Shown here: in pieces, positions 11,001 to 45,771 of the stretch
Numbering within the stretch: the stretch's first letter is position 1
Layout: each line of letters begins with the position of its first letter
NCBI GenBank assembly: GCA_015067495.1
Contig: SVMI01000007.1
Span: forward strand, 59,377-123,376
Length of the DNA: 64,000 nt
Source of the DNA: Oscillospiraceae bacterium
GTDB taxonomy: Bacteria > Bacillota > Clostridia > Oscillospirales > Oscillospiraceae
Reading direction: 5' to 3'
Notes under the pieces: model-generated
Seen by the model: only the letters and a program-made list of their open reading frames with translations
The model's database searches: none
What the model was told of the DNA's origin: nothing
Translations under genes and position numbers: made by a program

Positions 11001-12585
11001 CGAACTCCATCGCAGTACCCGGCTTGACTTCGAGCACATGTGACGAGATGTAGGAGTATTCATCGTCGTTTGCATTCTGACCCCAGTGGACGATCGTCAC
11101 GGTGACGGTGGGCTTCTCCAGCTTCCAGATCGCTTCCCATACAGTATGGTGCGCCGGAAGGGTCTCCGGCAGCAGATCCTGAATGCCGTCGCCCGTGCCG
11201 TCGGTAATATCGTCCCAACCCACGAACAAATGGTCTGCTCTACTGGGTGTGGGGATCTTCAGTTCCGCGCCATAGCGGGCATAAACAGGTTCAACGCCAT
11301 GACCACCGCCCAGATGGAACATCATCTTGTAGTACTCGCGGTCATAATATACATTGATAACAGTACTGCCGTCAGATGCCAGCGGGACGGATTCAATATA
11401 CGACAGATAGAAGCCGTCGTAGGAGCGGCTTTCCGGCGTGATCTCCACGCCTGTAAAGTCCATAGCTGTATAACGCTCATGCTCGGTATAGTAATCATCC
11501 TCGTTGTGCTGCCAGTAGTAGATGACTGTATAGTTGACCTTTGCGGGCCAGTAGCGGAAGGTCAGGGTATGATCTTCATCGAGGACGAAATCCGTGAAGG
11601 ACACCTCTGTCCAGATCTTCTCGACATCATTCTCCAGATAGGCACTGTAGCCTTCCTTCTCAGGAAGCTTGAAGCTATCACTCAGCTTGGAGCCCTTTTG
11701 TACCTCGTACACACGGGACTCCGCCACAGGCTCACCATTGGCACCGTATACAAAGCGGATGGTCAGAGTAACGGTTTCGTCAACGCCCGCATCCAAGGTT
11801 CTGGGCGCGCCCAGCATGAAGCCCTTCGGAAGGGACTCGGTCACCGTAACCGGGATCGGTTCGGAGATCGCCTGCAGCTCAGCAGATTTGGACACAACAC
11901 GAACATACGCCTTGCCGTTCTCGTCGGCTGCGTTTACCAGCATACCGTAGGACATGTTCAGCTCAGCAGCATTCTCACCACGGATATCGACCCAAAGATC
12001 GTTTTCTACATCGCCGCAGACCTGCCACTGATACTCCACGCCGCCCAGCAGCGTCGATTCCGCACGCAGCTCCACCTCTTCAGAGGGAATGACCACAGCA
12101 GAGGTCAGTACGTCGCCGTTGGCATCGAATACATAGCTCTCAGGCTCGGAAACGATCAGAGAATCCGGGTTATCGTCAAAGTCAGTCCAGTTCTGGAACA
12201 CCCAAATGCTGCTGTTCCAGCCCTCCGGCATGGTGCAGTTGGGCGCAGCGGAGAGCTTATACCACAGGGAGCAGCACTCCTTCTCATGGTAGACATCCGC
12301 AATAACAAAGGTCAAATCATCCGGAATGTCCGCCGCCTCGACGATTTTGTCATCGTCAACGGCAGAGCCGTCATAGGCAAAGGGCTGATCCGAAACAATA
12401 TAATTATCCCATGCTTCTTTATCGAAATGGGCAGTCTTGCCGATCTGATCGGTGTAGCTCTTTTCCGCAGCAGTGCCGGTCTCAGAGGAATATACCATTG
12501 GAAAAATGTCCGCTGGGAACACTGTCAGCAGCATCACAAATGCCAGCAAAAGCGCAACGCCGCGCTTTCCAAAGCTCATTTTCAT
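8041..12585 (-). CDS. Large secreted InlB B-repeat/MucBP-like protein with internal His/Cys-rich block
   Basis: Start at MKMSFGKRGVALLLAFVMLLTVFPADIF with RBS agaaaggag; multiple 'FAGWYLEEHGAGEPFDPSIH..LYAIWK' and 'VYYRDAATGEDLLPPKEVTDNK' repeats; ORF-track start at 12669 is too far upstream. Confidence 0.8.
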   Translation of the reverse strand: MKMSFGKRGVALLLAFVMLLTVFPADIFPMVYSSETGTAAEKSYTDQIGKTAHFDKEAWDNYIVSDQPFAYDGSAVDDDKIVEAADIPDDLTFVIADVYHEKECCSLWYKLSAAPNCTMPEGWNSSIWVFQNWTDFDDNPDSLIVSEPESYVFDANGDVLTSAVVIPSEEVELRAESTLLGGVEYQWQVCGDVENDLWVDIRGENAAELNMSYGMLVNAADENGKAYVRVVSKSAELQAISEPIPVTVTESLPKGFMLGAPRTLDAGVDETVTLTIRFVYGANGEPVAESRVYEVQKGSKLSDSFKLPEKEGYSAYLENDVEKIWTEVSFTDFVLDEDHTLTFRYWPAKVNYTVIYYWQHNEDDYYTEHERYTAMDFTGVEITPESRSYDGFYLSYIESVPLASDGSTVINVYYDREYYKMMFHLGGGHGVEPVYARYGAELKIPTPSRADHLFVGWDDITDGTGDGIQDLLPETLPAHHTVWEAIWKLEKPTVTVTIVHWGQNANDDEYSYISSHVLEVKPGTAMEFGSGEFVCELEEHQHGQNCEYDCGTEPHTHSLSNNCYELTCSKTGHDHESEGCELGNCPHPTHEWFCSIYCSHKNHTDSCYTCGQKNGIHTHTLAAGCYKLTCTTEEHTHNAECYACIEHIHTEHCYLAMDCLDEKLWVFNAEKSDKEHTALPGQANILNAYYDRTTFDLNFKYGSGYGTTGTISEKWGTHILDQYNAITEKAGGYMWSENTSDGPYTNYFGVMPQPYMKDGELVKEKTYYLHTFSGSTQNGLVYFLADKDGNYVEKFRTTWKSGSGNNFTVSEEDFFEFEGYVVNKTLSADVGDSCKSFPEFYYDRRVYTLTINDGKENLDPIYIPYEANIGEYLNFTPEPPDIYPQGSVEFAGWYLEEHGAGEPFDPSIHTMKAKNLYLYAIWKPVQCDVRFYLDETLVGTNEIYQATVDGDTITYQYSIPYGSHVQDPYTPPGDPTKGQYLFVGWFYTNDHGMELLWDFHETQVTGDTDIYAKWNSNVSVDYSVRFVWIDENGQEVEIAEPVTGKARGGTSKTFEAKGAANLYGDYYEGYFPNIKSHTIVMDLDHPENNHFTFYYTQENSVPYTVYYRDAATGEDLLPPKEVTDNKMAAVTEEYVRIDGYLPDTHRHTLIVVPGGENEIVFNYTEDNVNGMYLVHYWIQNENGDGYIKHSEFEGRAEKGTKVDALAKDIEHFVFDASHPQNVTSGTISVDNVLELHMYYDRNQYPYKVQYFERYTNRELLPTKFGTAYWGSSVTELAPAAGTGALEHFSLISAPELSIEIAYDLVENTTVNVITFYYAENRVNLHYVAGEGGTVSTQTESVRISGGSARGSVATAAAGYAFEGWYSDPGYSDLVSTDPAFAPTKAADALWADGTTYYAKFKRSITSMTVSVTGSEDIDENQTFLFRITGADGVDMTVTVHGNSSATVTGVTVGNEYTVTQLNDAWRYTPDAAQKKITVGADAAANAVTFTQSRTDGQWLDGNNWLDNLIRSQND

Positions 12586-12664
12586 AGATCCGGCACTCCT
12601 TTCTATATGATTTTGCAGGGCATATATCGATGTCCTCCGGGAGGGCACCCAGATATACGCTGCA

Positions 12665-12693
12665 CCCAACCCTGCCCTCGGGGCAGGGTTGGG
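12665..12693. repeat. Intergenic hairpin CCCAACCCTGCCC-TCG-GGGCAGGGTTGGG
   Basis: Perfect 13-bp arms; shares CCCAACC/GGTTGGG ends with hairpins at 18223, 23422 and 25527. Confidence 0.75.
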
Positions 12694-12703
12694 ATATTAT
12701 TGA

Positions 12704-13399
12704 TCAAATTGCGGTAACCGTCATGGTGCAGCCGCCGGGCAAATAGCCGGGGGTGTTCTTCAGAACGTACTCGAACCAAACGGCACACTTTTCGGCGGTG
12801 ATCTCCGCAAAGGCAGTATTCAGAGCATCTGCAGGGGCATCTGGCAGGCCGGTGGTCTGGGAAGCCTGGGACAGAACGATCAGCTCATACTTCTCGCCTA
12901 CCTTGTCCATCCACGCGCTGTCCGCCTCCGGGCGCACCGTGATGGAATTCAGGCATTGATAGGAGTCACCGACTGCCAACTGACCGTCGTAGATGTAGTA
13001 ACCCACGGTAAAGCAGGTTTCCGACACCGTCTGACCGTATTCGTCAGCGATGGTGACCTTGAAGCGCACCGGCTCAGCAGGAAACGTGACGGTCACGGGT
13101 GAATCATGCCCGACCATCCCAAGAACACTGCCATCGGCTGCATCTTCAAACGCAAACAGCGTGCGCACATAAGCGCTCTGATTGCCGTCGTTGGTCACGG
13201 TGACTTTCTTGGGGATCGTCACATTCGGGAGGATCACGGTGTTCTGCTCAAAGACCTCATCCTGACGGATGCTGATCTTACCGGCGACCATCGTGTTGAC
13301 GCTGGATGCCGTGTCCGTAAACCACGCGACGGTACTGCCAATGAACATGACCACCAGCAGCGCAAAGCAGAGCAGGCTGGAAATCAGTTGCTTCTTCAT
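12704..13399 (-). CDS. SipW-dependent TasA/camelysin-like secreted protein
   Basis: MKKQLISSLLCFALLVVMFIGSTVAWFTDTASSVNTMVAGKISI; NDGNQSAYVRTLFAFE. Confidence 0.8.
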   Translation of the reverse strand: MKKQLISSLLCFALLVVMFIGSTVAWFTDTASSVNTMVAGKISIRQDEVFEQNTVILPNVTIPKKVTVTNDGNQSAYVRTLFAFEDAADGSVLGMVGHDSPVTVTFPAEPVRFKVTIADEYGQTVSETCFTVGYYIYDGQLAVGDSYQCLNSITVRPEADSAWMDKVGEKYELIVLSQASQTTGLPDAPADALNTAFAEITAEKCAVWFEYVLKNTPGYLPGGCTMTVTAI

Positions 13400-14109
13400 G
13401 CGCTCGTGCCTCCAAACCATGTCGCTGCATTGACTGTGGTAACTTCACCAAAGGCATCGTTCAGAGCGGCTGCCGCGCCGTTTGTAAAGCCTGCCGCCTG
13501 CACAGCCTGCGACAGCACATGGATCTCATAGCTTGCGCCGACACTGGCAAAGAACTCGCCCTTCTCTTCCGCTGCAAGGTATACCTGCAGCAGGCTGGGT
13601 GCGGAGGTGGCACCGGCTGCCAGCTCTGCGTCGTAAACGTAAGTACCAACAATATAGTGAACTCCGTCCTTGACGAAGGTGATGTCCGTCATGGTGATGC
13701 CATTGTCCACCTTCTTCAGGCTTGCGTCAAAGGGGCTTGTCCAAGTGCCGTCATTATTGATCATCTCGAAAGCGATCAGGGTGCGGACATAGGCAGCTTC
13801 TGTACCCTCGTTCTTCACGGTGACGATCTTGTCCACCGCGTTGTTTGCGGTGTTCAGAAGCGCGTAATTTGTGCCGTTGATCGCAACATCAGCGGTCGCG
13901 TTGTTGGTGATCGGCAGCAGCTTGACATTATCGACAAAATCGACCAGCGCGCCATCCTGACGCTTCTGCTCCAGCTGGGTGATCTTCACGTTGCCGACGA
14001 CCATGGTGTTCACGTCCGCATCGGTGAAGGTCAGGTAGGACATGGTGCTGCCAACTGCCAGAATGCAAGCCAGCGACAGTGCCAGCAGGATCATCATTGT
14101 CTTTTTCAT
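13396..14109 (-). CDS. SipW-dependent TasA/camelysin-like secreted protein
   Basis: MKKTMMILLALSLACILAVGSTMSYLTFTDADVNTMVVGNVKI; NEGTEAAYVRTLIAFE; overlaps next gene start. Confidence 0.8.
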   Translation of the reverse strand: MKKTMMILLALSLACILAVGSTMSYLTFTDADVNTMVVGNVKITQLEQKRQDGALVDFVDNVKLLPITNNATADVAINGTNYALLNTANNAVDKIVTVKNEGTEAAYVRTLIAFEMINNDGTWTSPFDASLKKVDNGITMTDITFVKDGVHYIVGTYVYDAELAAGATSAPSLLQVYLAAEEKGEFFASVGASYEIHVLSQAVQAAGFTNGAAAALNDAFGEVTTVNAATWFGGTSA

Positions 14110-14721: not shown

Positions 14722-15312
14722 TTACGGATTAGCTCCAAAGGTTGCGTTCCAAGCCGCTTCAGCAGTAGCAAAGCCTTCAGCCTGCACGGCATAAGCCTTC
14801 ACGGTGATGGTCTTGCCATCATACGGCTGCAGATCATCCACATTCTCGCTGATGGTGAAGCTGTCGAAAACAGGAACATCATTGCCTGCTTCCGCAACAG
14901 TACCGTGGTAATAAACATTCGTATCACCGATCTTGGTCCAGCCCTTGGCTGCCATCTGTTCAGCGATGGTTGTTGCGCCGGATTTCTCGATTGCAGCGAT
15001 CTCGTTTACAACTTCCACAAACAGATAGCAGTTTTCGCTGCCCGCAGCTACATGCACCTTGGGATCCTTGGTGTAGGTCTGTCCGGGAAGCAGCTTATAC
15101 GCATTTTGGGTCACACGGTCAGCATCCACAACAGCGACTCCATCGGTGGTCACCTTTGCTTCATCCAGCGTGATCGCCACCTTACCAACGGTCATGGTAT
15201 TGGTGATCGGATCGGTTTCTGCCTGCAGGTACGCCATCGTACCCATGATGCTGGCGACGACCAGCGCTACAGCGCAAACAGACATGAGCAGTGCTTTCTT
15301 AAATGTTTTCAT
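14722..15312 (-). CDS. SipW-dependent TasA/camelysin-like secreted protein
   Basis: MKTFKKALLMSVCAVALVVASIMGTMAYLQAETDPITNTMTVGKVAITLDE; start overlaps end of upstream signal peptidase gene by about 14 bp. Confidence 0.82.
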   Translation of the reverse strand: MKTFKKALLMSVCAVALVVASIMGTMAYLQAETDPITNTMTVGKVAITLDEAKVTTDGVAVVDADRVTQNAYKLLPGQTYTKDPKVHVAAGSENCYLFVEVVNEIAAIEKSGATTIAEQMAAKGWTKIGDTNVYYHGTVAEAGNDVPVFDSFTISENVDDLQPYDGKTITVKAYAVQAEGFATAEAAWNATFGANP

Positions 15313-15964
15313 GATCATTACCTCCATTATCTTCCGTTGGGGAAGTGTCTTCTGTTTCCTGAATCTTTGCTCTTAAGCTTTCAATTTCTGCTTTCAGTTT
15401 TTCGTTTTCGTCGGAGGTCTCCCCGACAGAGGGTTCTTCCTCCCCGTCGCTTTTTGCCGATTTGATTAGATCCGGCAGGAAAACTGCCACGATCATCACC
15501 GCCGCGACAGCCATGGTGATGTAAGAACCCGGCGGATGCTGCACAAAGTCGGACACATATCCCAGATACGGGATCATGCCCACCACCTTACCCAGCACGT
15601 TTTTGCTGTGGACAAGAGAAGTGTCAACGATGTCATTGTTGTCGCCCTTGGTGCGGAAGCGCACGTACTCAGGGTTTTTCTCATCCGGGATCACTTCCAC
15701 GATACGGTGGGTGGCGATGGTGTTTTCGCTGAGCATGAAGGTGATAACATCCTTCTCCTTCAGCGTGGTCGGATCCACTTCCTTGACATAGATGATCGAT
15801 CCAACGGGATAGTTGGGTTCCATCGAGCCGGTGATCACTGTATACACCTGCATTCCCAGCAGACGTGCGCCTGCCAGCAGGGTTGCAAGGAGTACCATGA
15901 TGACCACCACAGTCGTGGTCACGATACTCCAGATTTTCTTAACCAAAAGGGTCACCTCTTTCAA
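15299..15964 (-). CDS. sipW: Signal peptidase I, ER/SipW type (SipW-C), with C-terminal coiled coil
   Basis: TGSMEPNYPVGSIIYV (Ser), ENTIATHRIVEV (His), RTKGDNNDIVD; two TM segments; tail ENEKLKAEIESLRAKIQE. Exact start uncertain (TTG 15964 or a downstream start). Confidence 0.88.
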   Translation of the reverse strand: MKEVTLLVKKIWSIVTTTVVVIMVLLATLLAGARLLGMQVYTVITGSMEPNYPVGSIIYVKEVDPTTLKEKDVITFMLSENTIATHRIVEVIPDEKNPEYVRFRTKGDNNDIVDTSLVHSKNVLGKVVGMIPYLGYVSDFVQHPPGSYITMAVAAVMIVAVFLPDLIKSAKSDGEEEPSVGETSDENEKLKAEIESLRAKIQETEDTSPTEDNGGNDHENI

Positions 15965-16157: not shown

Positions 16158-16793
16158 TCAGTTTGTCTGCTGCGTGGCAGTGATGATCACACCCAGCTCC
16201 ACCCGGGGGATCACGTCACCGCGGTAGTTGGCAACGTTGTCCACTTCCTTGGGCATCCGCACGATCAGTGCCATGTAAGACACGCCGTTTTCGCCCAGAG
16301 ATGCGGTATTTACAGCGTAATTGCTCAGGGGCATGTTGGCAACAGCTTCCGCATCCACGCGGGTCGCCACCGCCTCAACCAGTTCCGCTTCTGTATCGGC
16401 AGTGATCAAACCGAATTTCAGATGATCCTGCAGATGGAAGGTCTGACCGAACATGTTCGTCGCGACGGTGTAGTCCGTAACCGAGACCGCTGTCTTCACA
16501 TCAAAGGGCATCTGACCCAGATTTTCCACCTTCAGGTATACCACCTGCACGTATCCGGGTTCATAAAGTGCCTTATCGTCGAAGATCTTGGTGGTCTGAT
16601 CCACCTGCTCCCACGTGCCGTCCTCCAGAAGATGGGAGACCTTCCAATCAAATTCCGCGAAATGGAATACATTCCTGACATCCTCATCCGTGTCCGTAAA
16701 CCACGCAAGGGACGTTCCTGTACCCAGTGCCGCCCAGAAGACGATCATGGCAAGGCTCAGCGTCAGCGCAAGTTTTTTGTAGAATTTACTCAT
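16158..16793 (-). CDS. SipW-dependent TasA/camelysin-like secreted protein
   Basis: MSKFYKKLALTLSLAMIVFWAALGTGTSLAWFTDTDEDVRNVFHFAEFD...YEPGYVQVVYLKVENLGQMPF; overlaps upstream stop. Confidence 0.82.
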   Translation of the reverse strand: MSKFYKKLALTLSLAMIVFWAALGTGTSLAWFTDTDEDVRNVFHFAEFDWKVSHLLEDGTWEQVDQTTKIFDDKALYEPGYVQVVYLKVENLGQMPFDVKTAVSVTDYTVATNMFGQTFHLQDHLKFGLITADTEAELVEAVATRVDAEAVANMPLSNYAVNTASLGENGVSYMALIVRMPKEVDNVANYRGDVIPRVELGVIITATQQTN

Positions 16794-17443
16794 GCCGTCT
16801 CCCCCTTTCTTTTCTTCCACAGCAGGAAGAGCAGGCAGAAGATGGCAACCACGCTGACTGCCATCAGCGATGCCGGTCTCGAGACGCCCATATCGCCGGT
16901 TGGCGGCGGTGTGGGATCGTCGGGATCGACGGGATATTCTTCGATGAGGAACTCCCAATCCAGAAGACCGATTGCATCCTGATACTCGTTGCCCAGCTCG
17001 GCAGGTACATCCAAAATGACCTCAAGGTCGACCTCGCCGCCGGAATAGAGCGTGCCGAGGTAGGTCCATTCGGTCAGCTGAGCGGTCTCATCCGCGGCAG
17101 CATCGAACATGTAGTCCATCGCGCCGTTCTCCAGAACCCGGACCTTCAGATCAAGCATGGAGAGGAAGTCCTCCGAGCCTTCGTGGGCGCCGCGGGAGCG
17201 GATGTAGATCTTGACCTTGACCTGATTGTCTGCCCGATTGCGGACAGTAACAAGCTGGGTCAGATGATCGCCGGGCATGACGCCCTTGAAGTTGGTAAAG
17301 AGATCCGTGAGGGAATACTCTGTGCCGGGTTCAAAGATGAACTTGCCGGCATTCTCGGTGTAGGTGACAGTGCCTGCGCTTGCAGGAACAGCAAGCATCA
17401 ATATCAGGCTGAGTACGGTCAGAGCAGAGATCAATTTCTTCAT
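16790..17443 (-). CDS. Secreted protein with ordinary signal peptide and C-terminal PPPTGD...TM...KKRKGE anchor
   Basis: MKKLISALTVLSLILMLAVPASAGTVTYTENAGKFIFEPG; C-term PTPPPTGDMGVSRPASLMAVSVVAIFCLLFLLWKKRKGETA. Confidence 0.72.
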   Translation of the reverse strand: MKKLISALTVLSLILMLAVPASAGTVTYTENAGKFIFEPGTEYSLTDLFTNFKGVMPGDHLTQLVTVRNRADNQVKVKIYIRSRGAHEGSEDFLSMLDLKVRVLENGAMDYMFDAAADETAQLTEWTYLGTLYSGGEVDLEVILDVPAELGNEYQDAIGLLDWEFLIEEYPVDPDDPTPPPTGDMGVSRPASLMAVSVVAIFCLLFLLWKKRKGETA

Positions 17444-17455
17444 AGCCGCACCCCC

Positions 17456-18025
17456 TTACTCATCCGCGGGCCAGCCGAAGGCCTGCGAAGCGTCTCCGTC
17501 CGGGACGGGGTTGTTTTCGGACTGGACAGCCTGGGCGACGACAGTCAGATTCAGTACAGAACCCACATGGGTCTGATCCAGCTGGGAGCCGACGATCTCC
17601 ACCTCGGAAAGGAACCATGGGGAGAATGTGTGGGGATCAACGATGCCGTTGTAGTAGAACCAGCCGTCCTTGTAGGTCCAGTGCTGGGAATTGATGTTCA
17701 GCTTGAGGCACTCGTCAGCGATGAGTGCCTGATTGGTGGAGCCATAGACCACCTTCACCCGGAGGTAGAATGGGTGATCGCAGTCGTTTTCGATGGTCAC
17801 GACCTTGCTGACGATGTCGCCGGGGATGACGTAGATGCCTTCCTCGGGGAAAGGCGTACCCTGATCAGTGGTCTCGTGGATCACGAGGCGGATATTGCCG
17901 GAGGTAACGACGTTGGTGGCAGTGCCGAAGGTGGTGTAGTATGCAAGAGAGCCTTGGGTCAGCAGAGAGATCAGGATCGCAGCCAGACCGATGGCGAGAA
18001 AGCGCAACTTGATTTTTGCGAACAT
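17456..18025 (-). CDS. SipW-dependent TasA/camelysin-like secreted protein
   Basis: FLAIGLAAILISLLTQGSLAYYTTFGTATNVVTSGNIRLVIHETT. Confidence 0.8.
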   Translation of the reverse strand: MFAKIKLRFLAIGLAAILISLLTQGSLAYYTTFGTATNVVTSGNIRLVIHETTDQGTPFPEEGIYVIPGDIVSKVVTIENDCDHPFYLRVKVVYGSTNQALIADECLKLNINSQHWTYKDGWFYYNGIVDPHTFSPWFLSEVEIVGSQLDQTHVGSVLNLTVVAQAVQSENNPVPDGDASQAFGWPADE

Positions 18026-18260: not shown

Positions 18261-21200
18261 TTAGCCAACAATCTGAACGCTATCGTCCAAAACATACTTG
18301 TTAATCAATCCAATGATGTACTCCTTGGTGTACAGTCCCTTGGAGATACCGACCTTCATAACGGGAATATTGTACTGCTCAAATACAGAGATGTCGCAGT
18401 ATTCATCCCACTCGTTGTAGTTGTACAGACCATACTTCTCGATATCGGACTGCATCTTCGTCGTACTATACTTCAGGTCTTCGCCAAAATCGAAGGTATT
18501 GATAACATCGACAAGAACGTGTGTCACACTCAAAGTATCTTCAGCCACATAATTCAGCGTCTGATTGGTAACGATATCGTACTTGTAACCCGTAGTCCAT
18601 TCTACAGTCACATCAATCAGTTTCTTCACACCAACCTTACCCGTGGTACCAATGGCTACAAATCTGTGACCGATGAACTGCTTGTAGTTGACAGCATCGA
18701 TATTTACATACTTGTTAAGATCAAGGTCAAAAATGCCATGCTCGTTGATCGTTACAAGTTCGCTACCATCGTCGAAAATGAAGGTATTCTTGTAGAAGTC
18801 ACTCTGTGTCTTAACAACAATGATTATATCATTATTGGTCACCTTGCCCGTAAGATGGTCAAACGCCATCACTGAATCGCCCTTGCGAAGATCTTCAATT
18901 GCTTTCTTGGTGCCATCTGCGAGAGTGATCAACGTACCCTCGGCAAGACAAGTGGTATTACCACCCCCGCTGCTACTTTCAGCACTAAATGTAATAGTCA
19001 CTGTTGTGCTATTCGCTACCACTTTTTGACTAGTTCCCTTAAACCTCCAAGATGTAATCGGCCATGTGCCATTACACTTATTTGCAATTTTACCATCGGA
19101 AACAATCTTAATGCCGTGATTGCTATCTATAGAAGCACTCAGCGTTTTACCGCCGTTTGAGGCACCGGGACTGCTACAACCAGACGGCACTCCGAGAACC
19201 AACTCCAAGACTTGACCATTATTATAAGTAATCGTTACCGTGGTAGCTGCACTAAAAGCATTGTTGCTCGCAGGGTCCAAAACCACTGATTCAATATTGG
19301 TCTTATGGTCAAAGGGTTCCGCTACGCCATCCTTGTTTGCATCGTCCATAATCTGCTCGATTGCATCAAGGGGATACATCGTGTATTTCCAGTTGCCACT
19401 GTATCCTCCCCATTCGCCGGTTAAACCAGCGCTATCGATCGAGATTGTAGCATCTGCGATTGACTTTTCATAAACGTCCAACACTAGCGGTACTTCGTAG
19501 GTCCTTGTTACACTCTTATTGATCTTTTGGCCATTCTGATTATAGAAGATGTCATCCTTCACAGTAAAGACTAGCGTATAGGTTCCCTTTGTGTCCAAAG
19601 TGACTGTACCAGTTCTTTCTTCGCCGCTGGGAGTAATACATTTAGCTGTTACAGTGTAGGATATGCCAGTATACTTGCTCCACTTTGCCAATGTATTGAG
19701 GTTCAGTAACAATGCACTCTCGCCCTTCGGATACATCGCGCTCAAGCCGTTCTTATCGCCAATCAAGAAGCGGGTATCGTCATCATTGTCCTTTGCCTGC
19801 ATCTGGTCGCCCAAATCAAACTCAAACGTGGGCAGGTAGTCACCTTGTGAATAGGCAACCTTTTCATAATTGTTATCCACGCTATTGTTCGCTGCAGGGA
19901 CAGACGCGACAGCCGCTCCAACGTTTTTTTCAAAACCCTGTGCATAGAAGGTAACTGTTACATCATTCGAAACAAGATATCCGGTATTGGCAGAATCAAC
20001 AAGCACGGCATCATCGAGGTTAATAGACTCATTAATAGAAATAATGCCCGTATTTACAGCCTTCGGATTTGACCCAATGTGATAAGCGGAGAACTGATTG
20101 TCAAACATTGAATTAAAAACCGTCTGTGCTTCTGTAACTTTAATTGCGCTTATATCGGTTTCATAAACAAAGTTATACTGTTTCAAGTAACCATTTAAGA
20201 TAAGCTTTGTTGAATCAGCACTTGCGCCATCTGTAATGACGATGCCCATACCCACAACACCACGTCCATCATTATAATTGACCGTTGTCACATTTGTAAG
20301 GGTATTTGAACCACCAGAAATCAGGAGATTGGCGATCGTGCCGCCATAAAGTGTGGTGTCAATAATAGTGTTACCATTGGAACGAACTGGTGCTGCACAA
20401 TTAGCTATGTAACAATTCTGAATGATACAATGCTCCGCGTCAACCGCAGCAGTATAGTCATTCTGAGCAGCACCAGTCAAAGTGGTTGTATACATGCCGT
20501 ATTCGTCATAAATATCACCAACTATGCTCAGATGATCCAAAGTAGCATTCTTTGCGATAATAATACCATGACCCTGTTTGGAGTTGTACTGATTCATGCC
20601 GCCACGAACATCAATTTCAAAGCCGTTGCCATATACTGTACAGCTCTGATAATTGATTGTACCGTTTGCGGAAACCTTGATGTTCTGGAGCAGAACCACA
20701 TTAATACCATTCGAGCCGTTCGCAGAAGTAATGTTCTTCGCATCCACGACTTCAAGGTACAGCTCGGTCGGCTTACAGAAGTTGTAGTCCTGAATGGTCA
20801 CCTTGACAACACCAGTACCCTCAAGCTGGATTGTACCCTTAGTCCAATCGGTGGTATTAGCCGTAAAGCTGCCGGAAACGTTCATGTTTTCGTCTACCTT
20901 GTCAATGGTAACATAGACACCAGAAGCATTGATCTCCATATTATCCTTAGCAGCAAACAGGCTGTCAATGGAAACTGCATTCTGATTACCCACGCGGTAC
21001 AGGAAATTGCCGGTAAACTTAGTTTCAAATTTATCCTGTGCGTTGGTATAATCGCTAATCTCAATGTTCTCATACTCGTCCACGCCATCGACACCCCAGC
21101 CATAGCCGCCAAAGAGCTGACGGAAGGGAATGTAAACTGCCTGCTTATCTTCATTAGCAGTGTGGACATGCTTACAAGTAACAGGATTTGCATCTATATT

Positions 21201-23333
21201 CAGTTCCGAATGGTCAACACGGCTGAATTGGAAGTCATCCGTATAAGAAGCTATACTGTTCTTCTCAAATTCACAGTAGTAATACTCGTGACGATCGCCG
21301 AAATTAACCGTACATTTTTTTGCAGTGACATTCGAAAGATCCAACGCGCCCTTTCCGTTGTCGAGGCGCTTGTCAACAGTGCCGATATATGCGCCGCAGT
21401 AGCGATACCAGTAATACTGATAATTACCGCAAACGTCGTTATATACATCAATCGTAGCCGCAACGTTACAGTTCTCAAACAGCACCTTGCTGTCAGATCC
21501 CAAATAACCCAGCAGACCTGCAGCACCAACGTCCCAGCTTCCCCAAAGGGCAGAAACCGTGTTTGTATCGTCTACTGTGATGTTTTTGAAAATCAGGTTG
21601 TATCCGCCATTATTATTTGCGCCATTACTGCCATCTCTGCCAACAACTGCAGCAACACTGGTATTATAGGTCTGGGGATGGCTGCTGGTAATCGCAATAT
21701 TCTCAAAAGTTGCATTTGCTGCATAAGCCGCAACGCAACCAGTGGGAGTAAATTCACCCTCAGAATAGAAGTTGTCGATGGTCAAGTTTTTGACGGTACC
21801 GCCATAAACGTAGCCAAACAGACCCATAGCCGCATTATAATAGGTACCGTCATATGTACCGAGCAGCATCCATGTATTTTGGAAAATGTTGCTGATTATA
21901 TGACCCGTACCATCGAAGGTGCCGGAAAATGCACCCTTATAACCATCAGATGTATAGCCAATGGGATAGAACTTCAGCATGCCGTTCTCATCAAGAACCC
22001 CTGCGCCACCCATATCAACATTGTTGATCAGCTTATAGTGCTTGCTGCCGTAGCTATCAGGTTCATTTGCGATTACGTTGCCTAAATATGCCAGCTGATC
22101 AGCGTTGGCAATGATGTATGGATCATCCTCTGTGCCGGTACCATCAGCGAAGCTCTCCGCAAGATTACCTTCCCAAGCAGCAGTGGTATCCGCAACAACT
22201 GCAATCTCGGAGAAGGATGCCATGCTCAGCTTGACATCGCCGGTCACGGGGTCGTACTCGAAGCCGTTGTGGGCGCTCAGCGTGCCGGCAGTCATCTCAT
22301 TGGTCGCGCCGTTCTCAACGTGATACAGCGCATAGTTGCCCATGTTCAGACCGGGCATCATGGCTTCCTTCACGTAGATCTGAACGGGGGTTGTGTTGCC
22401 GGCGGCTACGCCTTCCACATGCACATCCAGAGAACGCATGATCTCATTTTCCTGCAGCACAACATTGCTCTGGGTCGCGCTCAGATTGGAAACGGAGAAG
22501 GTCAGCTGAGTTGTGCCGGACTCCAGCAGCGTGCCGGCAGGCACAACTGCGGAAATATGTCCGCTCTCGCTGGTGATGGTGACATCGCCGGTCAGGCGGT
22601 TGTCAGTACCGGGGGTGACATTCACAGTCACGCTGCCGGGCTTCAGAGCCGGGAAGGTGGCTTCCGTGTCATAATCAGGGCCAAAGGAGTCAGATTCCGC
22701 GGTCATCTGGGTCGCCAGCAGGGTGATGCCCAGATTGATGCTGGGAGGTGTGGTGCCGGTCTTATAGTTGGCTTCGTTGCCAACGGTTTCGGGCATGTAG
22801 ACCACCAGCGCGAAGTACTCGTCTGCCTCGTCCTTCAGCATCTCGCCATTGACGGTCTTGCCGGATGTGAGGGTGTTGGTGGTAGTCAGCTCCGCACGGG
22901 CATCATCGCGGCTTGCGAAGAAGGTGGTCTCGTTGGTCTTGTCCTTAACGATACCCATATGGATATAGTTGGACAGGATCAGAGGCTCGTCATAGACGTT
23001 TGTGCCGACGCTCTGGCTGGCAACGCGGATGCCCAGCTGGTACTTCAGTGCCAGATTGCCTGCGTTGCGGACGCGCAGATAGACAACATCCGTGTAGCCG
23101 GGTTCCCAAAGCGCGCCCTCGTCAAAGACGTTGGTGCTCTGGTCGACGGGCTTCCACGCGCTTGCGGACTCGTCGTACCAATCCAGCTCCACATCCAGAA
23201 TGCCGGTCTGGATGATGTTGTTCATGCTGACGACCTCGTCAGTGAACCATGCGAAGGTAGTGCCCACGAACATGGATACGCACAACACAAGTGCGATCAT
23301 GCTGCGCAGGAACGCCTGCTTGCTGTTTTTCAT
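18261..23333 (-). CDS. Giant (about 1690 aa) TasA/camelysin-headed secreted protein with beta-helix/GLUG-like region and C-terminal Hint domain
   Basis: Start MKNSKQAFLRSMIALVLCVSMFVGTTFAWFTDEVVSMNNII with RBS gggagga; GTFDGTGHIISNIF...GLFGYVYGGTVKNLTID repeats; C-term CLAEGTLITLADGTKKAIEDLRKGDSVMAFD...LVTINEHGIFDLD Hint hallmark. Confidence 0.85.
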   Translation of the reverse strand: MKNSKQAFLRSMIALVLCVSMFVGTTFAWFTDEVVSMNNIIQTGILDVELDWYDESASAWKPVDQSTNVFDEGALWEPGYTDVVYLRVRNAGNLALKYQLGIRVASQSVGTNVYDEPLILSNYIHMGIVKDKTNETTFFASRDDARAELTTTNTLTSGKTVNGEMLKDEADEYFALVVYMPETVGNEANYKTGTTPPSINLGITLLATQMTAESDSFGPDYDTEATFPALKPGSVTVNVTPGTDNRLTGDVTITSESGHISAVVPAGTLLESGTTQLTFSVSNLSATQSNVVLQENEIMRSLDVHVEGVAAGNTTPVQIYVKEAMMPGLNMGNYALYHVENGATNEMTAGTLSAHNGFEYDPVTGDVKLSMASFSEIAVVADTTAAWEGNLAESFADGTGTEDDPYIIANADQLAYLGNVIANEPDSYGSKHYKLINNVDMGGAGVLDENGMLKFYPIGYTSDGYKGAFSGTFDGTGHIISNIFQNTWMLLGTYDGTYYNAAMGLFGYVYGGTVKNLTIDNFYSEGEFTPTGCVAAYAANATFENIAITSSHPQTYNTSVAAVVGRDGSNGANNNGGYNLIFKNITVDDTNTVSALWGSWDVGAAGLLGYLGSDSKVLFENCNVAATIDVYNDVCGNYQYYWYRYCGAYIGTVDKRLDNGKGALDLSNVTAKKCTVNFGDRHEYYYCEFEKNSIASYTDDFQFSRVDHSELNIDANPVTCKHVHTANEDKQAVYIPFRQLFGGYGWGVDGVDEYENIEISDYTNAQDKFETKFTGNFLYRVGNQNAVSIDSLFAAKDNMEINASGVYVTIDKVDENMNVSGSFTANTTDWTKGTIQLEGTGVVKVTIQDYNFCKPTELYLEVVDAKNITSANGSNGINVVLLQNIKVSANGTINYQSCTVYGNGFEIDVRGGMNQYNSKQGHGIIIAKNATLDHLSIVGDIYDEYGMYTTTLTGAAQNDYTAAVDAEHCIIQNCYIANCAAPVRSNGNTIIDTTLYGGTIANLLISGGSNTLTNVTTVNYNDGRGVVGMGIVITDGASADSTKLILNGYLKQYNFVYETDISAIKVTEAQTVFNSMFDNQFSAYHIGSNPKAVNTGIISINESINLDDAVLVDSANTGYLVSNDVTVTFYAQGFEKNVGAAVASVPAANNSVDNNYEKVAYSQGDYLPTFEFDLGDQMQAKDNDDDTRFLIGDKNGLSAMYPKGESALLLNLNTLAKWSKYTGISYTVTAKCITPSGEERTGTVTLDTKGTYTLVFTVKDDIFYNQNGQKINKSVTRTYEVPLVLDVYEKSIADATISIDSAGLTGEWGGYSGNWKYTMYPLDAIEQIMDDANKDGVAEPFDHKTNIESVVLDPASNNAFSAATTVTITYNNGQVLELVLGVPSGCSSPGASNGGKTLSASIDSNHGIKIVSDGKIANKCNGTWPITSWRFKGTSQKVVANSTTVTITFSAESSSGGGNTTCLAEGTLITLADGTKKAIEDLRKGDSVMAFDHLTGKVTNNDIIIVVKTQSDFYKNTFIFDDGSELVTINEHGIFDLDLNKYVNIDAVNYKQFIGHRFVAIGTTGKVGVKKLIDVTVEWTTGYKYDIVTNQTLNYVAEDTLSVTHVLVDVINTFDFGEDLKYSTTKMQSDIEKYGLYNYNEWDEYCDISVFEQYNIPVMKVGISKGLYTKEYIIGLINKYVLDDSVQIVG

Positions 23334-23421
23334 ATGTATCTTCCTCCCAAAATCAGTTGGAATTATTAATGGATTTATGCGGTGAGCAAAAGGCGCAATC
23401 CCTTGTGCCCTTTGATCGCCG

Positions 23422-23443
23422 CCCAACCCCCGGAGGGGTTGGG
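23422..23443. repeat. Intergenic hairpin CCCAACCCC-CGGA-GGGGTTGGG within a longer conserved block
   Basis: Block 'gagcaaaaggc..c..tgccctttgatcgccgcccaacccccggaggggttgggtaggctgga' recurs at about 25489-25556. Confidence 0.8.
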
Positions 23444-23462: not shown

Positions 23463-25367
23463 TCAGACCGCCTGCAGACGGAAGGTCTGGGTCGCTGCAT
23501 CCCAATAGGTTTCGTAGCCCGGGTTCATGCAGATCAGCTTTGCCTCATCGCCTGCGGTGTAGGTATAGCCTGCTGCGGGCTTGAAGTTGAAGTTTGCAAA
23601 GTGCTCGTCAGACTCATTAACAGAGAACTTCAACGTATTGAACTCTGCCGCAAGATACGCAGTGTTGTGGTTAGTGGAGAGGTCGTATGCGATAACCCCG
23701 TCAACCTCAGCTTCGCCCCATGTGAGGTTCAAGCCACCGCTGTATCCAAAGCTATCGATGATCTTACCGCCGGTGATGGATGCGGAGTTATTCAGCAGGA
23801 ACAGCGAATTCTCACCATTGTCGTAGATCTCGCCGCCGGTCATAACAAAGCTGGCATGGTTGTGGAAGCGGATCGCACCGACGCCAGAAGCAGCCGCGTT
23901 GTCATGCAGCTTAAAGGTGCCGCCGATCTTGACAGTTTCATAATAACCGGCGTACATCGCGCCGCCGACCTGCTCGGAGTAGTTATAGGCCATCTCGCCG
24001 CCGTTGAACACGTAAACGTTGTTGCTGCTGGAGGAACCTGCCCAAATTGCACCACCCTGGCTGGTGGAGTAGTTGTGGTTCATTTCGCCGCCATTCATGG
24101 TCAGAACGGTACCGACGTTCGTTACCACGCGGATCGCGCCACCCAGGCTGCCGGAGTTGTAGCTGATCTTACCGGCATTCATGATGATCTCGCCGCCGCC
24201 CCAGATCGCGCCTGCGGCCGCAGTGTTGTTGATGATCTCACCGCCGTTGATAATGAGCTTGCTGCCGGTACGGGTGTCGAGGAACACTGCATTGGCACCA
24301 TCGTTATTCTGCAAAACCGCGCCCTGATTCAACTCAACCACGCCGTTACCCTCGGTAGTAACGATAGCGCCGGTTGCGGTCACACCCGTGTTTACGGTGC
24401 CACGCTGCAGAACATCGTTGATGGGACCTGTCCACACAGCACCGCCGTCGACGGTGATGTTTTCAAGTGCCAGAGCAGCATTCGCCTTAACGGTGAACAT
24501 TCCGCCGGTGTAACCGGCAGCACGGGAAACAGTGAAGCCTGCGCCATTGATGTTGGCTTCGTAATCCACAACAAATGCCTCATTTGTTGTGATATCCTTG
24601 GTCAGGACGATGTTTTCCGCATTTCTCTCCAGTGCCAGCTTCAGCTCATTCGCGCTGGCAACGGGTGTCCAGTCCAGTTTTGCATCTGCATCATACTGAT
24701 CGTCAAAGGTATCCTCTTCCCAAGTATACTGGGTAGCCAGCAGCTGGACGGAGAAGCCCTCGCCGACAGACAGATTCTGATAGTTATTGTCAGCGGACTC
24801 GCGCATCTTCAATGCAATGCAGTAAGCGATCTCGCCCTTAGGTGCATCAATGCCGTTGTTGCGGTCAGAGCCGACACCCTCTGCGGGAAGCAGATAGCCA
24901 TGGGCAGCACCGTCAATATCCGCCATCAGCTCCGCCAGCGTGCCAACGGGTGTTGCAGCGTCAATATCAGCGCGGTCAGCTTCCTCTGCAGGCAGCATGT
25001 ACACATCAATGACATCCGCCAGATTGTACTGACCGGCAATGGGCAGTACATTGGGGATAATGCTCAGCTTGAACTTGAATGCCAGATCGCCCACATTCTT
25101 GATCTTGATATATTTGACCTCGGTGTAGCCGGGTTCCCAGTACTGGTAGTTGAAGATCGCGCCCTGAGAAGCGTCCGCGTAAGTACCGTCAACTGCGTCA
25201 GACCACAGCAGCTCAACATCCAGAGAGCCGGACTTGATGATGTTGCCCGTGCTGGTCACTTCGTCGGTAAACCAAGCAAAGGTCGTACCCACAAACATGG
25301 AAACGCACAGCAGCAGAGACAGAACGCTAAGCACCAGAGAGCGTTTTGTCGGGTTTTTGTTTGTCAT
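23463..25367 (-). CDS. TasA/camelysin-headed secreted protein with right-handed beta-helix-like C-terminal region
   Basis: Start MTNKNPTKRSLVLSVLSLLLCVSMFVGTTFAWFTDEVTSTGNIIKSG; repeated GGEIINNTAAAGAIWGGGEIIMNAGKISYNSGSLGGAIR. Confidence 0.82.
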   Translation of the reverse strand: MTNKNPTKRSLVLSVLSLLLCVSMFVGTTFAWFTDEVTSTGNIIKSGSLDVELLWSDAVDGTYADASQGAIFNYQYWEPGYTEVKYIKIKNVGDLAFKFKLSIIPNVLPIAGQYNLADVIDVYMLPAEEADRADIDAATPVGTLAELMADIDGAAHGYLLPAEGVGSDRNNGIDAPKGEIAYCIALKMRESADNNYQNLSVGEGFSVQLLATQYTWEEDTFDDQYDADAKLDWTPVASANELKLALERNAENIVLTKDITTNEAFVVDYEANINGAGFTVSRAAGYTGGMFTVKANAALALENITVDGGAVWTGPINDVLQRGTVNTGVTATGAIVTTEGNGVVELNQGAVLQNNDGANAVFLDTRTGSKLIINGGEIINNTAAAGAIWGGGEIIMNAGKISYNSGSLGGAIRVVTNVGTVLTMNGGEMNHNYSTSQGGAIWAGSSSSNNVYVFNGGEMAYNYSEQVGGAMYAGYYETVKIGGTFKLHDNAAASGVGAIRFHNHASFVMTGGEIYDNGENSLFLLNNSASITGGKIIDSFGYSGGLNLTWGEAEVDGVIAYDLSTNHNTAYLAAEFNTLKFSVNESDEHFANFNFKPAAGYTYTAGDEAKLICMNPGYETYWDAATQTFRLQAV

Positions 25368-25526
25368 TTCAAATGACCTCCTTTCCATTTGTCAACGTTG
25401 GGAAGTGTGAAAGCCGTTCTCTCGCTGACCGTTGACCCAACGCGGGAGGCGGCTTATGCAGTTTCTGCCAAGGGGAGTCTCCTCAGCGAGCAAAAGGCAC
25501 GATTTTGTCATGCCCTTTGATCGCCG

Positions 25527-25567: not shown

Positions 25568-27496
25568 TTAGTTCAGACCGTTAACGGTAACATTAGCAGC
25601 ACCGTTCTTGATCTGCCACAGACCGTTGAAATCGCTGTCAACAACGTTGTTGCCTTCAAAGTTCACGGTGTAAGTACCACCCTGAGAGCCATCGTAGGAA
25701 ACAGCAGCAACATGGATGCCGTTCCAAGTCTGGGCAGCGGCGGTAGCGTTGAAGGTGCAGTTCTTAACGGTGACAGTCTGTGCAACATTGGTGCCATCCT
25801 GGAAGACCAGAATTGCACGACCATCGGTGTTAAAGGTGCAGCCATCGAAGGTAGCAACGGATGCGCCACCAACACGCAGATACTCGTTAGTAATATTGAA
25901 GGTACAGTTGTTGAACTCGCTGGTGCCATTGCCCAGGTTATAAGTGTTCTGAATGACGCAGTCATTGTAGACAGCACTCAGGCGGGCATAACCTGCGTAA
26001 AGCTGGCTGTTGGTCTTGATGGTTACGCCGTTGAAGGTAACGTTGGAGCCATCCAGACTGTAGTCCAGCTGACCATTGGCTTCGCCCTGACCGGCGGGAA
26101 CGACTTCAATGATGGAGTCGTGAGTGCCGTTGATAGTCAGAGTCTTGCCCTGAGCAACGTGGGGCATGTGATAAGTGCCGGGTGCCAGTGTAATATTCGT
26201 AGCACCTGCAGTGATGGCACCTGCCAGCTGAGCGTCGTTGGCAACCAGAGTCTCTGCGCCGAAGGTGTACTTGTAAGTACCGATGGTGACATACTTGCCG
26301 GTCTCTTCATTTGCGGTGCCGGAGGTAGCATCGGGATCCTTGGTGGTCTCGTAGAGACGCAGCTCAACAGTCAGAGTCACACCATCGAGAGCACCCTTGG
26401 ACTGGTCAATAACGCCGCACTTGAAGCCTTCATCATCGCTCCACTTGCAGATCTCTTCGTAGTTGACGAAAATCTGACCACCCAGCATATCGCCCAAAAC
26501 GTCGATCAGACGGATCTCCGTGCCGGCAGCGATAGGCTGATCGCTGGACATGCCGATCCAGTCGCCGTTAACACCACAGTATGCAGTATAGAAGCCGACC
26601 AGAGTGACTGCATTTGCAGGGATGTCTCCATCCGCGGAAACCACAAAGTCAGCATGGTAGTATCTGTAGGAACTCTGCTGTGCCTCGGTATAGTTCTGGG
26701 TAGGCAGGAACTGCAAGGTAGTGTTTGCAGCAACCTTACCGCCATCATAGGGAATCAGAGTAGCGCCTGTCCACTTCACGTTAGCCTTGGGGGGGAACAT
26801 GGCATTGTCGTCATAGATATGATCGAAGGAGTCGTTCTCCCAAGTGTACTGAGTAGCCAGCAGCTGGACGGAGAATCCGTCACCAACAGACAGGTTCTGG
26901 TACTCATTGCCTGCGGACTTCTGCATGTGCAGAACGATGCAGTACGCCAGCTCGCCACGGGGGGTGTCAACAGCGACATTGTAGTCGTTGGAGCCAACGC
27001 CCTCTGCGGGCAGCAGAACGCCGTGTGCAGCACCGTCGCGGTCAGCGATCAGGTCGGACAGGGTGCCGACAGCGGGAACAGCCAGCAGCTCTTCGCGGGT
27101 CTTGCCTGCTGCGTCAGCAGCGGGGACCAGACGAACTTCAATAACATCAGCCAAATTGACTTCGCCCACAGCAGGCAGCTGATCCGGGATGATGTTCAGC
27201 TGGAACTGGAATGCCAGATTGCCGGCATTGACAATCTTGACATACTTGACTTCGGTGTAGCCGGGCTCCCAGTACTGGTAGTTGAAGATTGCACCTGCAG
27301 CTGCATCATTCCAGTTGGTGTTATCATCAGACCACTTCATCTCAGCGTCCAGATTACCGGACTGGATGATGTTGTTGGAGCTGACAACCTCGTCGGTAAA
27401 CCAAGCGAAGGTCGTGCCGATGAACATGCTGATGCACAGGATCAGGCTCAGCACGCTCATCAGGAACGCACGCTTGGTGCCGTTCTTGTTAAACAT
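25568..27496 (-). CDS. TasA/camelysin-headed secreted protein with beta-helix-like C-terminal region
   Basis: MFNKNGTKRAFLMSVLSLILCISMFIGTTFAWFTDEVVSSNNIIQSG; C-term repeats FNNCTFNITNEYLRVGGASVATFDGCTFNTDGRAILVFQDG. Confidence 0.82.
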   Translation of the reverse strand: MFNKNGTKRAFLMSVLSLILCISMFIGTTFAWFTDEVVSSNNIIQSGNLDAEMKWSDDNTNWNDAAAGAIFNYQYWEPGYTEVKYVKIVNAGNLAFQFQLNIIPDQLPAVGEVNLADVIEVRLVPAADAAGKTREELLAVPAVGTLSDLIADRDGAAHGVLLPAEGVGSNDYNVAVDTPRGELAYCIVLHMQKSAGNEYQNLSVGDGFSVQLLATQYTWENDSFDHIYDDNAMFPPKANVKWTGATLIPYDGGKVAANTTLQFLPTQNYTEAQQSSYRYYHADFVVSADGDIPANAVTLVGFYTAYCGVNGDWIGMSSDQPIAAGTEIRLIDVLGDMLGGQIFVNYEEICKWSDDEGFKCGVIDQSKGALDGVTLTVELRLYETTKDPDATSGTANEETGKYVTIGTYKYTFGAETLVANDAQLAGAITAGATNITLAPGTYHMPHVAQGKTLTINGTHDSIIEVVPAGQGEANGQLDYSLDGSNVTFNGVTIKTNSQLYAGYARLSAVYNDCVIQNTYNLGNGTSEFNNCTFNITNEYLRVGGASVATFDGCTFNTDGRAILVFQDGTNVAQTVTVKNCTFNATAAAQTWNGIHVAAVSYDGSQGGTYTVNFEGNNVVDSDFNGLWQIKNGAANVTVNGLN

Positions 27497-28453: not shown

Positions 28454-29086
28454 TTATTCCGCCTCTTGCTCCTGCGCCAGCTGGGCCTTGAGCTTCTCCA
28501 ATTCTTCCTTCAGGCGGGCATTTTCATCGATTGCGGACTGCTCCTCAGCAGTTGGCACCCTCTCCCCTGCTTCCGCAGGCTCGGGTACAGCGGGCTTTTT
28601 CACAAAGTCCGGCGCAAAAGCAAATATGATCAGGATCACAACCACAGCGATCGTAATGTACATACCGGGCGGGTTCTGGACAAAATCAGACACATACCCC
28701 AGCTTCGGGATCTTGAAGGTCGGTATGCCCACCAGATTATTGAAATGCACCGGATTGGCGTCTTCCGTGTCGTTGACGTCGCCCTTGGTGTAGAAATGCT
28801 GCTTTTCGGCATCGATGCGAACCACACGGTGGGTCGCGATGACAATATCCTCATTGAGGATAAAGGTAATCACATCGTTCACCTTGACTGTTGCGGGATC
28901 CACTTCCTGAACGTAGATCAGATCGCCGATGTTGTACTCAGGTGCCATAGAGCCGGAAACGATATTGAACACACGGTAGCCCATCAGACGGGACCCCAGC
29001 AAAAAGACTGCCGCAATGACAACGATGGAAACCAGCACCGTGGAAACGATGCCCCAGATTTTCTTAGCCTTCTGCATCCGCGCCAT
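28454..29086 (-). CDS. sipW: Signal peptidase I, ER/SipW type (SipW-B), with C-terminal coiled coil
   Basis: VSGSMAPEYNIGDLIYV (Ser), DIVIATHRVVRI (His), YTKGDVNDTED; tail ENARLKEELEKLKAQLAQE. Confidence 0.88.
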   Translation of the reverse strand: MARMQKAKKIWGIVSTVLVSIVVIAAVFLLGSRLMGYRVFNIVSGSMAPEYNIGDLIYVQEVDPATVKVNDVITFILNEDIVIATHRVVRIDAEKQHFYTKGDVNDTEDANPVHFNNLVGIPTFKIPKLGYVSDFVQNPPGMYITIAVVVILIIFAFAPDFVKKPAVPEPAEAGERVPTAEEQSAIDENARLKEELEKLKAQLAQEQEAE

Positions 29087-45683: not shown

Positions 45684-45771
45684 TTCAATTCCTCCCGGCA
45701 ATACACATCGTGTATGCAGATCATAGTATGACTATTATAGCACGTCATTTTTTCTTTTCAAGGAAAACGAA

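Follow-up and report, generated by a model that had tools for sequence, protein, structure and literature searches.

The last 229 residues of a giant SipW/TasA-headed protein (18264-18950, minus strand) form a module in which a Hint domain is followed by a conserved helical tail. The protein is encoded in a stretch of 64,000 nucleotides from an uncultured, gut-type Oscillospiraceae bacterium, which we call the window. This bacterial, tail-coupled Hint module has a Hog-like anatomy, and roughly a hundred exported proteins that are unrelated in other respects have it in common. The analysis directly shows the predicted Hint fold, the existence of the module, how well it is conserved, where in the proteins it lies, and that it has reassorted among exported heads. 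From the sequences and the structural model, we put the chances as about even that this is a bacterial Hog-like autoprocessing module, i.e., a non-splicing Hint domain with a helical recognition tail that would cleave its host protein and leave behind either an adduct or a carboxylate. The features of the protein and of its gene cluster are as follows.

12704-13420, minus strand: TasA/M73-like protein with SipW signal, same cluster (PF12389; TIGR04088 over cut-off)
15299-15964, minus strand: SipW-type signal peptidase, same cluster (TIGR02228 over cut-off; NF046067 E 1e-36)
17456-18025, minus strand: SipW-dependent matrix-protein-like gene, 189 aa, directly downstream (TIGR04090 E 2e-9, below cut-off)
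18261-23333, minus strand: gene for the giant SipW/TasA-headed protein, 1,690 aa (stop included in the coordinates)
18264-18521, minus strand: conserved helical C-terminal tail domain (A6 family), strongly acidic family-wide
18339-18341, minus strand: codon of the invariant tail Lys (82/82)
18432-18434, minus strand: codon of the invariant tail Tyr (82/82)
18498-18500, minus strand: codon of the invariant tail Asn (82/82)
18525-18950, minus strand: Hint domain, residues 1462-1603, beta fold (Pfam, AlphaFold2, Foldseek)
18738-18740, minus strand: codon of the block-B His (His in 81/82 aligned)
18948-18950, minus strand: codon of Cys1462, predicted nucleophile of the N-S acyl shift (Cys in 82/82 aligned)
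18951-18980, minus strand: Ser/Gly linker (SSSGGGNTT) directly before the Hint Cys
22628-23333, minus strand: TasA/camelysin (M73)-like head, signal included (approximate extent; PF12389 E 0.0028)
23232-23333, minus strand: SipW-type signal peptide MKNSKQAFLRSMIALVLCVSMFVGTTFAWFTDE (approximate boundary; TIGR04088 E 0.033, below cut-off)
23463-25388, minus strand: TasA/M73-headed protein, 641 aa, upstream neighbor (PF12389 and TIGR04088 over cut-off)
25568-27496, minus strand: TasA/M73-headed protein, 642 aa (PF12389 and TIGR04088 over cut-off)

The mechanical open reading frame for the giant protein extends to 23426 (18261-23426, minus strand), and its most likely start is the ATG at 23333, with GGGAGG upstream. 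Numbered from this ATG, with the stop codon at 18261-18263 (minus strand), the Hint Cys is residue 1462 of 1,690. Judged by sequence, the TasA/SipW head assigned in the original prediction is real, though sub-threshold alone, since it is 34% identical to the neighbor at 25571-27496, which itself lies over the M73 and SipW-signal cut-offs. The SipW-type signal, the M73-like head, and the clustering with a SipW peptidase are those of a TasA/SipW matrix protein. A full-length homolog exists at locus L100 (48% identity over 747 aa and 30% over most of the remainder), in which the head and the middle part are also present.

Several other genes of the window deserve mention. A 217-residue protein of the same cluster (16790-17443, minus strand) ends in PPTGD, a hydrophobic stretch, and KKRKGE, which resembles a sortase sorting signal, and proteins akin to it occur in the L100, L115, and L130 clusters. 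Within the ORF 8041-12669, at about 10600-10950 (minus strand), an InlB-repeat protein of the same cluster has a very Cys/His-rich stretch with repeated C..H and H.H motifs, which is possibly a metal site. The window also encodes a second SipW-like signal peptidase (28454-29086, minus strand) and a 1,826-aa protein with transglutaminase-like, BspA leucine-rich, Ig-like, and dockerin domains (40221-45701, minus strand).

The Hint assignment is no chance resemblance and draws on several lines of evidence, of which the Pfam matches are weak but agree with one another. The segment CLAEGTLITLADGTKKAIEDL begins at the Cys codon at 18948-18950 (minus strand), and LVTINEHGIFDLD is present as described, with block B reading I-N-E-H, so that the Thr of TxxH lies one position too far upstream; Ile takes the place of this Thr in 70 of the 82 aligned copies, including that of the window. 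PF01079 matches with E 3e-5, and the Pfam Hint models as a group range from E 3e-5 to 3e-3, all below their curated cut-offs; an NCBIfam search of the giant protein gave no fitting Hint-tail model. Using the 82-sequence alignment (A4), in which the module of the window is 27-38% identical to its 81 homologs, AlphaFold2 predicts a Hint fold with a compact helical tail at a pLDDT of 93.9 and a pTM of 0.90; the single-sequence model (pLDDT 30.9) was discarded as meaningless, and only the 82-sequence model was used. Foldseek searches of the PDB matched the Hint part alone, to inteins, bacterial intein-like domains, and Hedgehog-C (1at0) with E-values of 1e-9 to 1e-7, and found no fold match that covers the tail. 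Altogether, the beta fold (predicted), the N-terminal Cys, and the block-B His bear out the Hint domain that the original prediction had proposed from the Cys onward. Its observation that the terminal His-Asn is absent also stands: the expected block G of the window copy reads TLSVTH, with LSVT where an intein has His-Asn followed by a +1 nucleophile. In most aligned copies, the Hint domain ends in LSMP or similar, and none has His-Asn.

The extra residues that had been noted after the Hint core do exist, but they number about 86 rather than 75, and about 78 of these make up an ordered helical domain in the AlphaFold2 model. In the 234-residue construct, strands extend to residue 147 and are followed by helices at 149-155, 168-178, 192-197, 200-208, and 214-226; since the pTM is high, the model suggests that the Hint domain and the tail are packed together. 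The tail has a mean net charge of -10 across the family and three invariant residues, Asn156, Tyr178, and Lys209 in construct numbering. Since mean pairwise identity is about equal for the Hint domain (54%) and the tail (50%), both are under selection. The tail gave 54 matches in 38 genomes, each of them inside a long open frame and most at coordinates already known for a Hint domain. One additional copy came from this search, and its Hint domain was confirmed to be present; orphan tails were looked for in the same 38 genomes and none was found. Hint domain and tail are a single conserved module.

The 1.98-Mb genome of the window has the module once. Of 200 other genomes from its family, one carries it, and a class-wide draw gave matches in 15 of 392 genomes (its own included). 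One of these 15 matches, L017 in class genome G255, is a BIL-like protein of another kind; this Hint protein resembles a type A BIL in ending with VHN and a few more residues. A scan of 85,462 species genomes yielded 404 pattern matches, and relatives are encoded in 248, of which 80 were kept; the copies come mostly from uncultured gut Clostridia. Placement is nearly always terminal: in 95 of the 108 examined copies, no more than 12 residues separate the end of the module from the stop codon, about a dozen carry a further 23-65 C-terminal residues that are mostly low-complexity, and one contig from a viral collection has 273 residues beyond the module. The residue before the Cys is most often Ser (49 of 108), Gly (22), or Thr (9). 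Several giant genes with the module lie within about 10-18 kb on one contig in G628 (L072, L192), G278/G651, G331, and G650. A metagenome-assembled genome (MAG) titled Acholeplasmatales (G655; L128, L193) encodes a 4,168-aa lipobox protein with the module at its C terminus.

No Pfam or NCBIfam model above cut-off covers the module, and a literature search, in which most subscription journals fell outside coverage, found no description of it. It is not named in the family libraries searched and is wider than first reported, being common to unrelated exported proteins. The heads that carry it are of TasA, subtilase, InlB-repeat, leucine-rich-repeat, and type IV pilin type. Among 59 passenger regions, we found InlB-type repeats in 24, BspA leucine-rich repeats in 15, subtilases in 12, alpha/beta hydrolases in 4, and type IV pilin signals in 2, and a simple hydropathy rule detects an export-type hydrophobic N terminus in at least 54 of the 68 proteins whose 5' side is intact. 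The head label, assigned by regular expression, changes 37 times on the module tree, where 5 changes would be the minimum; on well-supported branches, at least seven changes involve subtilase heads, likewise labeled. Since the heads are exported and reassort on the tree in this way, the module is a C-terminal cassette that moves among exported proteins.

Relatives also occur in viral collections. Three IMG/VR contigs (L131, L132, and L133) of a phage type with terminase and portal genes encode the full Hint-tail module on an 822-aa protein directly after the portal gene. More distant phage cousins from IMG/VR (L025-L032 and L135-L148) have a Hint domain without His-Asn that ends in ILTS near the C terminus of proteins of about 300-1,200 aa, followed by a tail of another kind, about 55-70 residues long. 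Scanning IMG/VR with a single query gave no match, nor did tblastn against annotated phages and plasmids. In a viral structure library, the top match was the predicted structure of a Gaeavirus protein annotated as Hint (BFVD A0A3G5A239; 223 columns, TM 0.74); since this match covers both Hint domain and tail, the two-part fold also exists outside these bacteria.

In eukaryotes, Hog domains are known to mediate covalent attachment. We compared the family with a Drosophila Hedgehog-C reference sequence that matches PDB 6td6 and 1at0 letter for letter. The profile alignment is gapless for about 45 positions from the Cys and places the family's ILFID over the ILFMD of Hedgehog, in which D is Asp303. 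Asp occupies the Drosophila Asp303 position in 68 of the 82 copies, and all 68 also have Pro in a block-F motif of the xPxT type (APLT in Hedgehog); the phage cousins mostly have Lys at this position and are without the block-F Pro. When Asp303 of Hedgehog is replaced by Ala, the N-S shift still takes place but transfer is blocked (PMC4695875). Given this role, the linkage of an Asp303-like residue with xPxT makes a Hog-like second step plausible by analogy for most of the family. The last ~70 residues of Hedgehog are also required for transfer (PMC4695875), and its sterol region has been modeled as a helix-loop-helix near the active site, with no homolog of known structure for the recognition region (PMC7906309). 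Aligned to Hedgehog with hhalign, only the first ~88 residues of the module match, and neither sequence nor fold comparison detects a relation between the tail and the sterol region. At the Drosophila Cys400 position, before which the profile alignment ends, manual alignment gives Met-Pro or Val-Thr in the family. The conserved block-F Cys of the family was considered as an equivalent of Cys400 and rejected, as manual alignment of the strand ends puts it about eight residues earlier.

In the mechanism that we propose, the Hint domain that begins at Cys1462 would be unable to splice and would always come together with a helical recognition tail. Once the protein has been exported, Cys1462 would attack the peptide bond in front of it, creating a thioester through an N-S acyl shift. 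A nucleophile positioned by the tail would then resolve this thioester and thereby remove the 229-residue module, so that the fibre protein would end in a covalent adduct, or in a plain carboxylate should water win. Homology makes cleavage by the module probable. Transfer to a nucleophile could, by analogy, go either way for the family as a whole and is less likely for the window copy; what the nucleophile might be, and whether it serves attachment to envelope or matrix, is speculative. Counting against the Hog-like reading are the Ile that mostly replaces the block-B Thr, the absence of any detectable relation between the tail and the Hedgehog sterol region, a Hint sequence nearer to a BIL domain than to Hedgehog, and the divergence of the window copy. 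That copy sits on a long branch of the module tree, its Asp303 position is a gap or a residue other than Asp, the Pro of xPxT is absent, and its module is more diverged from the L100 counterpart than its head is, so that its activity may be changed or reduced. Manual alignment places an Asp of the window copy at the intein block-F Asp position (YDIVT).

The strongest competitor of this Hog-like reading is a release by hydrolysis, in which water alone would resolve the thioester and the module would be a removable pro-domain, acting as a folding or export aid or as a timer, with no attachment. BILs, which have no +1 nucleophile, mostly yield cleavage products (PMC7664689), and type B BILs, which are without block G, cleave without splicing (PMC4031507). 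By sequence, the Hint domain of the module is closest to a BIL domain, namely, Tetrahymena BUBL1 BIL2, its best sequence match in the PDB (E 6e-8, compared with E 0.02 for Hedgehog), and one relative already has an N-terminal lipobox. However, a pro-domain does not obviously explain a constant tail in which Asn, Tyr, and Lys never vary, nor why the Asp303-like residue and xPxT go together, and we regard hydrolytic release as unlikely, though to be taken seriously.

A second competitor is that the Hint-tail domain is structural and no longer catalytic, binding a partner and remaining on the protein. The replacement of the block-B Thr by Ile would fit this, as would the long branch of the window copy on the module tree and its lost Asp303-like residue. 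Across heads and families, however, the Cys is exactly at position 1 in all 82 copies and the His is kept in 81. Since a purely structural domain would need no first-residue Cys, we consider this reading improbable.

Other functions of Hint domains fare worse. In polymorphic toxins, a Hint domain precedes the toxin domain (PMC3482391), and the original prediction had offered release of the tail as one outcome. Here, the same conserved tail follows unrelated heads instead of a variable payload, and clustering of the flanking ORFs gave no recurrent small immunity-type neighbor, the gene downstream in the window being that of a SipW-type matrix protein. Cleavage on the C-terminal side of a Hint domain normally requires a terminal Asn, which is missing, and we regard the release of a toxin as very improbable. 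The only neighbors that the clustering found to recur were those of the TasA/SipW clusters and a handful of small lipoprotein-like genes; its largest cluster was rejected as a conserved neighbor, as it looks like an antisense frame of the host gene. The module shares the Hint fold with inteins, but the chance that it is an intein, or a mobile element that landed at the C terminus fortuitously and transiently, is next to negligible, given that it has no His-Asn, C-extein, or endonuclease and is nearly always C-terminal on exported heads.

If the Hog-like reading holds, the question arises whether the module anchors proteins at the surface. Among 151 genomes in the order of G538, the module occurs in 22, sortase in 60, and both in one (Fisher p 1e-4 by genome and 0.002 by family, with relatedness partly controlled), and 42 of the 48 module-bearing genomes from the species scan have no sortase. 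This pattern fits the module as a sortase substitute in some lineages, short of proof. The genome of the window has two sortases, and those of two relatives have 6 and 11. Anchoring is weaker for the window protein, since its genome has these sortases and its copy is without an Asp303 equivalent. Nor can anchoring be the sole role of the module, because some relatives have a lipobox (at least one), pilin, or possibly uncleaved hydrophobic N termini. Peptidoglycan as the only acceptor is unlikely as a general rule, since the module is present in the MAG titled Acholeplasmatales, which has no MraY match and one weak Mur-ligase match, a result that may reflect incompleteness or misbinning. Surface anchoring is possible but rather doubtful. 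More tentative still is the fullest version, in which the module would be a bacterial counterpart of Hedgehog processing, conjugating its host protein by self-catalysis to a nucleophile of lipid, wall, or matrix that the tail selects. It would stand in for sortase in lineages without that enzyme and would be present even in an apparently wall-less bacterium.

Were it Hog-like, this widespread module would provide small bacterial systems in which to study the chemistry of a Hint domain coupled to a recognition domain, and it would bear on where Hog domains originated. It could also account for the processing or attachment of some exported proteins in gut bacteria without sortase.

Among known systems, the module resembles in anatomy the Hog domain of Hedgehog, as had been proposed: in both, a secreted protein ends in a Hint domain that starts with Cys, lacks His-Asn, and is followed by ~70-80 further helical residues, and most members of the family also share the Asp303 equivalent and the block-F xPxT. 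However, the module is bacterial, its helical tail is unrelated by sequence to the recognition region and, in contrast to that of Hedgehog, strongly acidic, the block-B Thr is mostly Ile, manual alignment shows no Cys at the end of the Hint domain, and the window copy has neither the Asp303 equivalent nor the Pro. Type B BILs are likewise bacterial Hint domains without intein block G in secreted hosts, but the module adds a dedicated conserved tail, an extreme C-terminal position, and, in most members, Hog-like residues. The poorly characterized bacterial C-terminal Hint subgroup of Dassa/Pietrokovski and Buerglin, from Myxococcus, Photorhabdus, and others (PMC2362128), also places a Hint-like domain at the end of secreted bacterial proteins; compared by description, that group differs in its weakly conserved N-terminal region with two Cys and in its phyla, whereas the heads of the module are unrelated to each other. 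PT-HINT (PF07591) similarly lies near the C terminus of large exported proteins, but its match to the module is weak and sub-threshold, and the module has a single conserved tail, no variable toxin, and no immunity-type neighbor. Finally, like LPxTG and other C-terminal sorting signals of sortase, the module is a modular C-terminal cassette on many unrelated exported proteins, with the difference that it would be self-catalyzed, and it coexists with sortase in the genome of the window.
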